Shown: in pieces, positions 7,771 to 50,413 of the stretch
Numbering within the stretch: the stretch's first letter is position 1
How the letters are laid out: every line of letters starts with the position of its first letter
Assembly (NCBI RefSeq): GCF_016638705.1
Contig: NZ_CP067341.1
Location: 1,243,501-1,307,500 of the forward strand
Reading direction: 5' to 3'
Length of the DNA: 64,000 bases
DNA from: Lysinibacillus agricola
GTDB taxonomy: Bacteria > Bacillota > Bacilli > Bacillales_A > Planococcaceae
Translations under genes and position numbers: made by a program
The notes under the pieces: generated by a model
Databases searched by the model: none
Told to the model about the DNA's origin: nothing
What the model saw: the letters and a program-made list of their open reading frames with translations, nothing else

Positions 7771-7977
7771 TATTAATTGGCTCATACCAAAAGTTTTGGA
7801 TGACATTTTTAAAACGTCTGCCATTTATATAAGTTGATTGGAGTGGAGACTGGACGCAAAAAAACATCCTGCCGCTGCCGCTTCGCTTTCGCGCAAAAAA
7901 AACTGTTGCCCCGATGCCCCCAGGAACCCAGTCGGAACGGAAATCAACCACACGTTATGGTGATGAGTTTATTAATT
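7771..7977. mobile_element. Family 1 MITE-like element A with 8-bp target duplication
   Basis: Element spans 7779-7969, flanked by TATTAATT at 7771-7778 and 7970-7977. Left end GGCTCATACCAAAAG, right end CACGTTATGGTGATGAGTT (the final GCC has changed to TT). Inside are ATATAAGTTGATTGGAGTGG, one GCGAAAGC-type cassette (on the complementary strand) at about 7861-7900, and the CCCAGTCGGAACGGAAATCA right subterminal block. No reading frame is supported. The remainder of the 7608-8098 gap holds only the presumed rpmB promoter region on the minus strand. Confidence 0.82.
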
Positions 7978-13956: not shown

Positions 13957-14110
13957 CTGTTGAAAAACTATTGTTTCAATGAGATTATGGTGTCATTAAT
14001 TAAAGTATGGTCTTAGGCAAAACGAAGGGTTGATTTCCGTTCCGACTGGACGACTCCTTGGGGATTAGCGATAGAGGATCGAAGGCTAAAACCATCATCC
14101 TGTCATTTCA
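13957..14110 (+). repeat. Family 1 remnant B
   Basis: Shares the GTTGAAAAACTATT flank with 6838. It then has GTTGATTTCCGTTCCGACTG, GACTCCTTGGGGAT and a decayed copy of the core hairpin (GATCGAAGGCTAAAA). No right terminus or target duplication. It resembles the left half of elements E and F. Confidence 0.65.
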
Positions 14111-19895: not shown

Positions 19896-20473
19896 GGCTC
19901 ATCACCATTACGTGTGGTTGATTTCCGTTCCGGCTGGGCGCTTTGTTGCTGCCGCTACGCTTTCGCACAGATAAAACATTTGCCGCTGACGCTTCGCTTT
20001 CGCGCAGATAAAACATTTGTAGCTGCCGCTTTGCTTTCGCACAGATAAAACATTTGTTGCTGTCGCTTCGCTTTCGCACAGATAAAACATTTGTAGCTGC
20101 CGCTTTGCTTTCGCTACAGAAAACATTTGTTGTTGCTGTCGCTTCGCTTTCGCACAGATAAAACATTTGTAGCTGCCGCTTCGCTTTCGCACAGAGCAAA
20201 GCTTCCTGGGGGCGTCCGATGAGCCGCTTGGGCCAACAGATGTTTTTTGCGCGAAAGCGTAGTGCTAACGTAGCGGCAGCAGAGGGTTTTGTATGTGCGA
20301 AAGCGTAGCGACAGCAACAGCACGACGTTGGTCACGAAGGCGTTATCACAGGACGTGATGCTCTTAGCCTTCGTTCCCCTACTTGCTCGCTCCAGGGTCT
20401 CATCTGTGACGCTGATCCCCAAGGAGTCGCCCAGCCCCCACTCCAATCAACTTATATACATGGCGTACGTTTT
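19896..20473. mobile_element. Family 1 element C (inverted, expanded, truncated at its far end)
   Basis: Left terminus GGCTCATCACCATTACGTG at 19896 is the reverse complement of the right end of elements A, E and F, so C lies in opposite orientation. It carries a tandem array of seven cassette units, then a 234-bp core that matches 40269-40502 in reverse. The core includes the covarying hairpin and ends in CCACTCCAATCAACTTATAT. The expected far terminus is missing: at about 20473 the sequence switches to a family 2 left end. CTATTCTA precedes the element but no second copy is seen. Frames running through it are not considered genes. Confidence 0.75.
19942..20195. repeat. Seven tandem 37-bp cassette units
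   Basis: Units of the type TTTGTAGCTGCCGCTTTGCT followed by TTCGCACAGATAAAACA recur head to tail about every 37 bp (some 36 or 40). They alternate GCTGCCGC and GCTGTCGC variants. Each contains GCTTTCGC (complement GCGAAAGC). There are no unique spacers, so this is a minisatellite-like array and not CRISPR. Confidence 0.85.
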
Positions 20474-23738: not shown

Positions 23739-24727
23739 AATTAGCGCTTGATGGAATGGGTGGCGACAACGCACCAAAATCAGTTGTTGAAGGTGCTTTA
23801 TTAGCATTAGAGCAAATTCCAAATTTAGAAATACAACTATATGGTCAGCAGGAAAAGCTTGAACCATTTATTAAAATACATGATCGATTAACTGTAGTAC
23901 ATTGTGAGGAAGTTGTGGAAGGAACAGACGATCCAGCACGCGCTGTTCGCCGTAAAAAGGATTCATCGATGGCAAGAATGATGGATGCAGTTGAAGAAGG
24001 AAAGGCAGATGCTTGTCTTTCAGCAGGTAATACGGGTGCTTTAATGGCAGGTGGCTTATTTAAAGTAGGACGTATTGAAGGGATTGCTAGACCTGCTTTA
24101 GCCACTACACTACCAACATTGGATGGTAAGGGCTTTTTAATGCTTGATTTAGGGGCAAATGCAGATGCGCGACCTGAGCATTTATTGCAATATGCGATTA
24201 TGGGCGATATTTATGCGAAAAAGGTAGGCAGCTTACAAAAGCCACGTATTGGTTTGCTAAATATCGGTACTGAGGATAAAAAAGGAAATGAATTAACGAA
24301 GGCTGCTTTCGAATTATTAAAAGAAGCAGATTTGAACTTTATCGGCAATGTAGAAGCTCGAGATTTACTTGAAGGGGTAGCTGACGTTGTAGTAACAGAT
24401 GGTTTTACAGGTAATATGGTGCTGAAATCGATAGAAGGAACAGCAGGCGCATTATTTTCAATGCTGAAAGAGGCGTTTATGTCTTCAACAAAAACAAAAA
24501 TTTCGGCAGCACTTATGAAAAATAATTTACGTGATTTGAAAAATAAAATGGACTACACAGAGTATGGTGGTGCAGGTTTGTTTGGTTTACAAGCACCTGT
24601 AATAAAGGCACATGGATCTTCCAACGCCAAAGCAATATACAGTGCGATTCGCCAAGCAAATACGATGGTAGAGCATACAGTCATCTCGACGATTACAGAT
24701 ACAGTACGTCACTTAGAAATTGATTAA
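23735..24727 (+). CDS. plsX: Phosphate acyltransferase PlsX
   Basis: Converts acyl-ACP to acyl-phosphate, the donor for PlsY in phosphatidic acid synthesis. 330 residues with [15 protein letters not shown] at the start, [14 protein letters not shown] near residue 93 and VVTDGFTGN near 222. Its last residues (LEID) are encoded by ATTGATTAA, and the same nonamer recurs at the far side of the repeat that follows. Confidence 0.97.
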
Positions 24728-24962
24728 CTTCTTTCAGCGGGTGTCCAAACACCCACTGATATAGAGGAACTCAGTCTAAGAACGCCACGTCCTGTGGCAA
24801 CGACTGAGTGACCAACATCATGTTGCTGTCGCTACGTTAGCACTACGCTTTCGCACAGAAAACATTTGTTGGCCTAAAGCCTCCGGCGGATGTCACGGAA
24901 TCGGAAAGGAGTTCTTTGTGCAAGCACAAAGCCGATTCCAGACGCAATTATGCCGAGGCATT
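24728..24962 (+). repeat. Family 2 structured repeat between plsX and fabD
   Basis: Starts CTTCTTTCAGC directly after the plsX stop and ends GCCGAGGCATT. ATTGATTAA lies at both edges (24719-24727 and 24963-24971). It contains the covarying core hairpin (24769-24809), a GCGAAAGC-type cassette (about 24821-24869) in the loop of the CCAAC/GTTGG stem, and a long hairpin CGGAATCGG...GCCGATTCC with inner TTTGTGC/GCACAAA (24896-24939). No T-run follows these hairpins. A copy without the cassette is at 45198-45442. Confidence 0.78.
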
Positions 24963-24989
24963 ATTGATTAAAAAGGGGATGAATGAAAA

Positions 24990-31583: not shown

Positions 31584-32845
31584 GTTTTTTTAAACGTTTA
31601 AAAGATAAGTTGGTAGGCAACCCGGTCGAGGAAGAAAAAGTAGTAGAGAGTACGGAAGAAGAAGCTGCTGAACAGAAGCAAGACGAAGCAACAGAGCCTG
31701 CTCAAATTGAAGAAATTGAAGAAATTGTAGATGAAGTTGAAAAAGTAGAGGAAGTTTCTGTAACGGAAAGTTCAATTGAAACCGAAATTCCTGAAGAAAA
31801 AGAAGATCAAGAACAACTAGAGCAACAAGAAGTGCAAGAGGTTGCGATAGCAGAAGAACCAGTAGAGGAGAAAAAACCTTCTGCATGGTCTATTACACAA
31901 AAGTTCAAGGCTGGACTGGAAAAAACGCGTAATTCATTTACTTCAAAAGTGAATGATCTAGTTGCTCGCTATCGAAAAGTGGACGAAGATTTCTTTGAAG
32001 AATTAGAAGACTTATTATTACAGGCAGACGTTGGCTTTGAAACAGTAATGGAGCTAATGGACAAATTACGCTTCGAGGTTCAGCGTAAAAATATAAAAGA
32101 TACAAACGGAATTCAAACGCTTATTTCTGAAAAACTTGTGGAAATTTATGAGCAAGGAGAAGAAGATTTAATCGAACTGAATATGCAACCTGAAGGTGAG
32201 CTTACTGTCATTTTATTCGTTGGGGTAAACGGTGTTGGGAAAACGACTACCATCGGTAAACTTGCTCATCGTCTAAAATCACAAGGTAAAACAGTTGTTT
32301 TAGCGGCAGGTGATACTTTCCGTGCTGGTGCCATCGACCAATTACAAGTTTGGGGAGACCGTGTTGGTTGTGAAGTGATTAAACAATCAGAAGGCTCTGA
32401 TCCAGCAGCGGTTATGTATGATGCAATTCGCGCGGCGAAAAACCGTAAAGCGGATGTGTTAATTTGTGATACAGCAGGACGTCTACAAAACAAAGTGAAC
32501 TTAATGAATGAACTTGAAAAAGTTCATCGTGTAATTTCTCGAGAGATACCAAATGCTCCGCATGAAGTACTATTAGCATTAGATGCAACAACAGGTCAAA
32601 ATGCACTTGTTCAAGCACAAACATTTAAAGAGGTTACAAATGTAACAGGAATTGTCTTAACAAAACTTGACGGTACTGCAAAAGGTGGTATTGTCCTTGC
32701 CATTCGCAACAAACTACACATTCCAGTGAAGTTTATTGGTCTTGGTGAAAAAATGGACGATTTACAGCCATTTGATGCAGAGCGTTATGTGTATGGATTA
32801 TTTGCGGATGGTTTAGATAAAGAATTACAAAATAATGAGGATTAG
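31580..32845 (+). CDS. ftsY: Signal recognition particle receptor FtsY
   Basis: 421-residue SRP receptor GTPase. An acidic Glu-rich A domain fills about residues 15-95, followed by the N domain and a G domain with [24 protein letters not shown] and [10 protein letters not shown]. The TAG stop (32843-32845) uses the first base of a MITE inserted here; the target duplication GAGGATTA followed by A downstream shows that the ancestral stop was TAA with the same last residues. Confidence 0.97.
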
Positions 32846-32947
32846 GTTCATCATCAAGAGTTGTAGATGACTTTTGTTAAAACGTATACTATGTAAATAA
32901 GTCGGAACGGAAATCAACAACACGTTTTGGTGGTGGTCCGAGGATTA
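32837..32947. mobile_element. Family 1 MITE-like element D in the ftsY stop codon
   Basis: A short internally deleted copy at 32845-32939, flanked by GAGGATTA at 32837-32844 and 32940-32947. Left end GGTTCATCATCAAGAG continues to ACGTATACTATGTAAATAAG and jumps straight to GTCGGAACGGAAATCAAC and CACGTTTTGGTGGTGGTCC. The core hairpin and cassettes are gone, leaving a 95-bp two-ended derivative. Confidence 0.85.
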
Positions 32948-40188: not shown

Positions 40189-40589
40189 AAATAAAAGGCT
40201 CTCCGCCAAAGTTAGGAATGGCATTAGTTAAAACGTATATCATGTGGTTAAGTTGATCTTCGTTCCGACTGGGCGACTCCTTGGGGATCAGCGTCACAGA
40301 TGAGACCCTGGAGCGAGCCATCAGAGGAACGAAGGCTAAAAGCATCACGTCCTGTGATAACGCCTTCGTGACCAACATCGTGCTGTTGCTGTCGCTACGC
40401 TTTCGCACATACAAAACCCTCTGCTGCCGCTACGTTAGCACTACGCTTTCGCGCAAAAAACATCTGTTGGCCCAAGCGGCTCATCGGACGCCCCTAGGAA
40501 GCTCTGCTCTGCGCGAAAGCGAAACGTCAGCGGCAAAGGCCCAGGCGGAACGGAAATCACCCCACGTGATGGTGGTGAGCCAAATAAAA
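40189..40589. mobile_element. Family 1 MITE-like element E with 8-bp target duplication
   Basis: Element spans 40197-40581 with AAATAAAA at 40189-40196 and 40582-40589. Left end GGCTCTCCGCCAAAG, right end CACGTGATGGTGGTGAGCC. It contains the core hairpin (40329-40369), two cassettes between CCAAC (40372) and GTTGG (about 40466), and one more cassette near 40505-40540. A plus-strand frame is open through it into ylqG. 40269-40502 matches 20201-20434 in reverse over 234 bp. Confidence 0.84.
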
Positions 40590-45197: not shown

Positions 45198-45442
45198 AAC
45201 TTATTTCAGCAGAAGTCTCCCACCTCTATAGGTGGTGAGATGAATGCGGATTTAAGTTACTTTTCAAACATCCGTTTAAATAGAGGAACTCAGTCTAAGA
45301 GCGCCACGTCCTGTGGCAACGACTGAGTGACCAACATCACGTTGGCCCAAAGCCTCCTGCGGATGTCACGGAATCGGAAAGGAGTTCTTTGTGCAGGCAC
45401 AAAGCCGATTCCGGACGCAATTTTGCCGAGGCATAATTGATA
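45198..45442 (+). repeat. Family 2 structured repeat, full-length cassette-free copy
   Basis: Begins AACTTATTTCAGC and ends TTTTGCCGAGGCATAATTGA. It includes hairpin CCCACCTCTATAGGTGGTGAG, the core hairpin ACTCAGTC-GCCAC-GTGGC-GACTGAGT (45288-45328), then CCAACatcacGTTGG, then CGGAATCGG / CCGATTCCG (45369-45413) with inner TTTGTGC / GCACAAA. No cassette. No terminal inverted repeat and no clear target duplication. It fills most of the sucD-dprA gap. Confidence 0.75.
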
Positions 45443-50130: not shown

Positions 50131-50413
50131 GTAATTTGGGCTCATCGCCAAACGTTGGGGATGACATTAAAAACGTATGCTATGTATATAAGTTGGTTGG
50201 AGTGGAGACTGGGCGACTCCTTGGGGAATCAGTGTCACAGATGAGACCCTGGAGCGAGCCGGTAGGGGAACGAAGGCTAAAAGCATCACATCCTGTGATA
50301 ATGGCTTCGTGACCAACATCCTTTTTGGCCCAAGCGGCTCATCGGACACCCTCAAGTAAGCGCCCAGTCGGAGCGGAAATCAACCCCACATTATGGTGAT
50401 GAGCCGTAATTTG
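50131..50413. mobile_element. Family 1 MITE-like element F, best-preserved copy
   Basis: Element spans 50139-50405 (267 bp) with GTAATTTG at 50131-50138 and 50406-50413. Termini GGCTCATCGCCAAACG and ATTATGGTGATGAGCC are inverted repeats over about 12 bp. The interior has AAGTTGGTTGGAGTGG, CTGGGCGACTCCTTGGGGA, the core hairpin (from 50270) and CGCCCAGTCGG near the right end, so subterminal parts also pair. No cassette. It separates trmFO from xerC; the rest of the 49889-50451 gap is AT-rich, with no gene seen. Confidence 0.88.

Follow-up and report, generated by a model that had tools for sequence, protein, structure and literature searches.

Bacillaceae-1 hairpins of Lysinibacillus agricola are mostly nested in small, probably mobile repeats

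Introduction

Bacillaceae-1 RNA (Rfam RF01690) is a family of 67 nt whose function is unknown. Its discovery table lists it as an RNA of Bacillaceae that is not cis-regulatory (PMC2864571). Gardner and colleagues (2015) noted that its reverse complement matches CsrA-binding motifs and that its discoverers were unsure of the strand (PMC4333381). BSGatlas counts eight newly annotated copies in Bacillus subtilis (PMC8208703). Bhal-1, a Bacillus halodurans family with 36 copies of 74 bp (PMC2267715), could be the same family. Covariation, such as this family displays, is commonly treated as proving that an RNA is structured. In the portions of the literature on Bacillaceae-1, RF01690 and Lysinibacillus MITEs available to us, we found no account of Bacillaceae-1 being carried in mobile DNA.

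Several described systems resemble what we report here. The pneumococcal BOX, RUP and SPRITE repeats are likewise composite, with inner modules that vary in number and with mutual insertion; however, their sequences are different, and the sections of that work available to us describe no catalogued RNA family with cross-genus covariation (PMC3049150). REP/REPIN and IS200/IS605 elements are also hairpins in intergenic positions, but the Y1 transposase is absent from the genome studied here. Among them, IS608 and ISDra2 target the lagging-strand template (PMC6006769). Mitochondrial double-hairpin and RHE elements are small mobile hairpins that occupy spacers and insert in tandem; they are organellar, however, and keep their stems while their loops vary, the reverse of Bacillaceae-1 (PMC2800124).

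Here we analyse Bacillaceae-1 in a 64,000-nucleotide stretch of Lysinibacillus agricola DNA (NZ_CP067341.1, positions 1,243,501 to 1,307,500; hereafter the window), in the rest of that genome and in relatives.

Results

The window hairpins are members of a known family. The original prediction, made from the letters of the window, described hairpins at 24769, 45288 and 40329 and an inverted copy, which lies at 20383-20317 on the minus strand. Letters and spacing are as claimed, and the five stem pairs that differ between the hairpins (three in the outer stem, two in the inner) are compensated in every case. A cmscan comparison with Rfam identifies all four as Bacillaceae-1, a family of which the prediction was unaware, and gives five matches in the window (Table 1). 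The matches are full length, with the same three helices and RUCCU loop as RF01690; scores are 46-75 bits for the window and reach 82 bits genome-wide, the gathering cut-off being 35. The 14-base core GTCCTGTGRYAACG occurs exactly four times in the window and seven times with at most two mismatches, compared with a mean of 0.64 and a maximum of 4 in 100 shuffled windows. Genome-wide there are 77 exact occurrences versus none for the reversed control.

Table 1. Bacillaceae-1 modules, host elements and nested repeats of the window (TIR, terminal inverted repeat)
Feature	Position	Strand	Remarks
Bacillaceae-1 module in host I, plsX-fabD spacer	24760..24826	+	74.2 bits; third hairpin split by small hairpin module
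Bacillaceae-1 module in host I, sucD-dprA spacer	45279..45345	+	74.6 bits
Bacillaceae-1 module at site b of host II, in the spacer that follows rnhB	40320..40386	+	68.5 bits
Bacillaceae-1 module in host II; sdaAA-recG spacer, antisense to the two genes	20317..20383	-	67.1 bits
Bacillaceae-1 module, decayed, in host II of the trmFO-xerC spacer	50261..50328	+	46.2 bits
Truncated remnant of Bacillaceae-1 module, after host II arm	14070..14104	+	by eye; absent from cmscan matches
Host I composite, made up of a 5' hairpin, Bacillaceae-1, a structured 3' domain and an end palindrome closing in TTGAT	24726..24968	+	
Host I composite	45198..45441	+	
3' domain of host I, itself covarying	24877..24967	+	
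Small hairpin module inside third hairpin of Bacillaceae-1	24826..24867	.	by eye; ends approximate
Host II miniature transposon	40197..40581	+	TIR mismatches 3 and 1; flanked both sides by AAATAAAA
Host II miniature transposon	50139..50405	+	TIR mismatches 1 and 0; flanked both sides by GTAATTTG
Host II miniature transposon without Bacillaceae-1 match	7779..7969	+	TIR mismatches 3 and 2; flanked both sides by TATTAATT
Host II core around 20317 module	19897..20450	-	by eye; one TIR kept, other end replaced by other repeats
Array of 37-bp hairpin modules inside host II	19942..20195	.	6.8 copies

The family is abundant and unevenly spread. At least 142 matches lie above the gathering score in this genome, a lower bound because 150 of 620 candidates were scored. 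Bacillaceae-1 is present in 24 of 32 Lysinibacillus genomes: none was found in 8, while 13 hold 1-19 copies, 4 hold 55-91 and 7 hold at least 109 (counted among the matches listed, 112 at most). Under stricter filters it appears in 67 of 299 sampled Bacilli genomes and 31 of 118 genera. The surroundings of the module vary by genus outside Lysinibacillus, where an exact inverted flank match of at least 10 accompanies 4 of 19 copies versus 2% in the control, a weak signal that we count against carriage by mobile repeats. We also observed head-to-tail copies 88 bp apart in the window's own genome (G000:4406633-4406875) and a similar arrangement in three relatives (G017, G030 and G031).

Covariation of Bacillaceae-1 is real across the family. 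In 191 distinct sequences chosen by a motif of unpaired positions only, 98.4% of outer-stem and 99.1% of inner-stem cells are paired, compared with 84% and 90% when the arms are shuffled, although the loci behind them are not a neutral sample (many are best matches of the Rfam model, or matches of a database pattern that fixes some invariant stem positions). We also aligned 57 sequences: three from the window and 54 chosen so that no stem type contributed more than two. Both members change in 12 of the 17 pairs (126 cells, versus 38 after shuffling), and none of 500 shuffles does as well; structures slid along the same alignment are 29-36% paired. The third helix is weaker (83.5% paired). Selection on base pairing, as the original prediction had proposed, is supported family-wide. 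Folded as single strands together with their hosts, three copies are more stable than shuffled sequences (z -5.6, -3.3 and -3.5). We considered a pseudoknot in which the 5' AGGA would pair with the UCCU loop and set it aside: both sides are all but invariant, partly through the search motif, so covariation is uninformative.

Within this genome, covariation mainly separates a few fixed lineages. The 119 copies that can be placed without gaps fall into three main stem sets of 62, 16 and 10, and the remainder differ singly, mostly on one side; 22 further copies that could not be so placed were left out of this count (in 12 of these the first loop was seen by eye to be altered). Fixed sub-lineages with uncompensated changes elsewhere, which the prediction had named as grounds for abandoning it, are therefore found in part, in this genome.

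That the pairing marks an RNA is not supported. On the Rfam strand we counted 12 G-U pairs and 21 A-C mismatches (9 and 15 over 42 distinct haplotypes), whereas an RNA kept on that strand would be expected to favour G-U. In addition, 23 of 99 copies in spacers between tandem genes are antisense to both neighbours. Rfam files Bacillaceae-1 as a small RNA, and the multiplication of a gene for a trans-acting small RNA would accord with the rating in the discovery table (PMC2864571), the strong covariation, an invariant loop (an invariance partly built in by the search motif) and the breadth of genera given above. We consider that explanation quite unlikely, given at least 142 copies in one genome when 8 of 32 congeneric genomes yield none, the position of most copies inside other repeats, the lack of a G-U excess and the uncompensated departures of single copies.

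Reading the putative RNA from the reverse strand would turn the same counts into 21 G-U versus 12 A-C. This would agree with the proposal, for which the published motif match and strand doubt (PMC4333381) also speak, that GGA loops on that strand bind CsrA as a CsrB-like sponge. However, the second loop often lacks the motif, its fourth base being G in 54% of the 119 placed copies, and the first loop is altered in the 12 of 22 unplaceable copies noted by eye. We regard a sponge as most improbable.

Most copies lie inside one of two host elements. Of 141 copies, 94 were assigned to host II and 35 to host I, 4 have a loose third motif only and 8 were left unassigned (some of these are visibly host II); the assignment of the 129 rests on fuzzy motifs. 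These two hosts correspond to the two families with unrelated ends that the original prediction had distinguished.

Host II has the features of an ISL3-type miniature transposon. Its terminal repeat is GGCTCATCACC, it is flanked by 8-bp target duplications, and its ends match two full-length ISL3-family insertion sequences (IS) in the genome. An 8-bp target duplication is a feature of the ISL3 family. We examined 77 TIR pairs with the host II hallmark, a set that includes overlapping false pairings and counts orthologous copies separately: 19 have flanks equal at 8 of 8 positions and 11 at 7 of 8, and shuffling predicts about one for the two classes together. The other 47 fall below 7 of 8; some are overlapping false pairings, and we count them against carriage by mobile repeats. 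Elements with 7-8 matching flank positions are 79 to 681 bp long. In the window there are four host II-type pairs with 8/8 flanks, one of them doubtful: a 95-bp stretch (32845-32939) flanked on each side by GAGGATTA, whose ends resemble those of host II weakly (2 and 3 mismatches) and which may be a minimal element or a chance occurrence.

The putative source of mobility can be seen in the same genome. Sixty exact TIR copies include two facing pairs at IS length (1324 and 1317 bp), which agree with the end consensus of 37 miniature elements at 23 and 24 of 27 positions. Both contain pieces of PF01610; PF13542 exceeds its cut-off in one of them and falls short of it in the second. One is flanked twice by CGAAAAAT (an 8/8 duplication) and the other has no matching flanks. 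The reading frames of both are interrupted, so that any current activity is putative; we count this, and the unmatched flanks, against carriage by mobile repeats. In Lysinibacillus sp. FJAT-14745 the ends of a third copy carry exact 11-base TIRs, and its flanks form an 8/8 duplication. From these shared ends and duplications we infer that host II has been moved by an ISL3-family transposase. Like ISL3-family IS and MITEs, host II has 8-bp duplications and ends in common with the two PF01610-bearing copies; unlike ISL3-family MITEs, its interior is a stack of hairpin modules and not a deleted IS. A host II query found no match in plasmids.

Host I is a different kind of element, a palindromic composite. 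We saw no terminal inverted repeats in it. Its 28 delimited elements (116 to 445 bp) mostly run from AACTT(C/A)TTTCAGC to ATAATTGAT, an agreement largely built into the search motif, with only the last T of TTGAT (28 of 28) being independent. Its 3' domain is also folded and covarying, so that the Rfam model accounts for no more than one portion of the longer folded composite that is host I. In 18 sequences from Lysinibacillus, Fredinandcohnia and one assembly each of Bacillus and Ureibacillus, 10 of 27 pairs of this domain change on both sides, in a structure predicted from the same alignment that tests it; 7 of 500 shuffles reach the observed number of both-side changes and 452 of 500 the number of further pair types. 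An RNA function would predict this covariation too, and we count it against carriage by mobile repeats. Queries with host I matched neither plasmids nor phages. Horizontal carriage was set aside on these results and on the plasmid result for host II, all of which we also count against carriage by mobile repeats.

Insertions can be followed at orthologous spacers. Thirty of 32 genomes were retrieved at each of four loci. The plsX-fabD spacer is empty (17-19 bp) in 20 genomes and filled (134-426 bp) in 10, mostly with differing module stacks. The rnhB spacer is short (12-74 bp) in 23 and filled in 7: host II lacks the module in three genomes (L408, L411 and L412), one of which has a host I unit elsewhere in the spacer with a chimaeric module in it, and contains the module in three relatives and the window's genome, where the module occupies another place in host II than in those three relatives. 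At trmFO-xerC, Bacillaceae-1 is found in two genomes and host II alone in three, and one relative (L450) has a single GTAATTTG and no host II. At sucD-dprA, one genome has Bacillaceae-1 and two have the host I base unit alone. Together with the TIRs and 8-bp duplications around host II, these presences and absences support the proposal that the hairpin module is mobilised. Overall, the original interpretation of the hairpin is partly supported.

Could the module move by itself? It occupies two places in host II, both filled in one element (L049, at 940929 and 941031, by eye), it also occurs in host I, its surroundings differ again in other genera, and hairpins sit inside its own third hairpin. 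These observations would suit a hairpin that moves independently, by its own means, into the loops of hairpins, as opposed to passive cargo. We hold this to be possible though doubtful: we found no target duplication or enzyme for the module alone, and the spread of its hosts can account for the copy number in this genome.

Orientation tracks replication more than transcription. With the terminus taken as the midpoint, 2.64 Mb (gene strands agree), the Rfam strand is the leading strand in 108 of 142 copies, and the bias is 31:4 in host I and 67:27 in host II (difference p 0.06). Of the 99 copies in tandem spacers, 76 are sense to both neighbours. This sense excess, and the proximity of all five window copies to housekeeping genes, would be expected of a cis-acting mRNA element that serves stability or attenuation in operon spacers. 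However, the excess holds for leading-strand genes (72 sense, 16 antisense) and not for lagging-strand genes (4 and 7; Fisher p 0.003, the lagging numbers being small), convergent and divergent spacers are leading-biased too (28 versus 13, p 0.03), and most relatives lack the element at the four compared loci. A cis-acting role is accordingly very unlikely in our estimation.

None of the 140 copies with flanks lies inside a called gene, under a caller that leans toward intergenic placement because frames mostly over the element were dropped and starts trimmed. A superseded unfiltered run (n=190), in which short frames over repeats counted as genes, gave 76 sense-sense, 20 antisense-antisense, 35 mixed, 22 edge and 37 in-frame copies; the 37, in called frames of at least 100 aa, were taken as spurious.

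Around the presumed terminus the copies are several times scarcer than close to the origin. There are 2-5 per 500 kb between 2 and 3.5 Mb, compared with 10-26 elsewhere up to 5 Mb.

Discussion

Bacillaceae-1 in this genome is probably a nested, non-autonomous mobile hairpin module that mostly rides an ISL3-type MITE, with host I as its other carrier. More than 100 copies are nested mostly in small mobile elements, and both the spread of the family and its conserved fold may therefore stem from mobile DNA and not from an RNA gene. The family is known and the context is new: carriage inside mobile elements is the new part. Whereas Rfam catalogues RF01690 as an sRNA, here it appears as cargo nested in mobile repeats and surrounded by a longer host that covaries as well.

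We propose the following mechanism. A folded DNA module of about 70 nt would be carried as nested cargo in two kinds of small non-autonomous repeat. An ISL3-family transposase would cut host II at its GGCTCATCACC ends and duplicate 8 bp of target. Host I, with ends AACTT...TTGAT, would be spread by a mobiliser acting on single-stranded DNA at the replication fork. The pairing would be kept because propagating lineages keep the fold while single copies decay, as the pattern of changes suggests. Recombination or a template switch from one palindrome to another could have brought the module into its hosts, as could transposition of the module itself.

A single-strand mobiliser for host I is suggested by the geometry of the element and its leading-strand bias. 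IS200/IS605-like PATEs are recognized by an orientation tied to the replication strand, which host I displays (31 leading, 4 lagging), and by fixed ends with subterminal hairpins and no TIRs; the 28 host I elements share both ends, mostly as prescribed by the search motif. A Y1 transposase (RAYT or IS200) was rejected as a general mobiliser, PF01797 being absent here and, in the six other genomes with at least 109 copies, either absent or fragmentary. The reverse transcriptase domain RVT_1 is present in all 11 genomes with at least 55 copies and in 12 of 21 others; we draw nothing from this distribution, since the genomes are related and such genes common.

A bolder version of our proposal is that Bacillaceae-1 is a parasite at the DNA level, a hairpin of about 70 nt and not an RNA gene, which enters the loops of palindromic repeats and rides along, its covariation reflecting selection on single-stranded DNA folding during movement. 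We put this forward tentatively and think it rather unlikely. If it were true, other high-copy orphan Rfam families may be alike.

The carriage that we favour has consequences of its own. A catalogued covarying RNA family that sits inside mobile DNA with target duplications indicates that covariation alone need not mean RNA function. It also gives a family of unknown function a concrete hypothesis, with an ISL3-type transposase as candidate mobiliser of its commonest carrier here. Moreover, the orthologous insertion series offer material for studying how nested hairpins grow.

Other small modules are nested as well. A 35-37 bp hairpin module with the core GCGAAAGCGAAGCGACAGC (at 19942-20195, 40388 and 7874) forms arrays, occupies loops of other repeats and splits the third Bacillaceae-1 hairpin at about 24826-24867, and its short stem seems, by eye, to be compensated between copies (GTAGC/GCTAC, GTACC/GGTAC). 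At three loci of the window's own genome (L014, L015 and L023) a second Bacillaceae-1-like module (GGATGTTAGCC...) is nested in host I, and in two of these (L015 and L023) a further module lies inside its end hairpin (all by eye). The window also holds an ordinary cis element, the ribosomal protein L19 leader (RF00556; 37129-37170, 42.8 bits).
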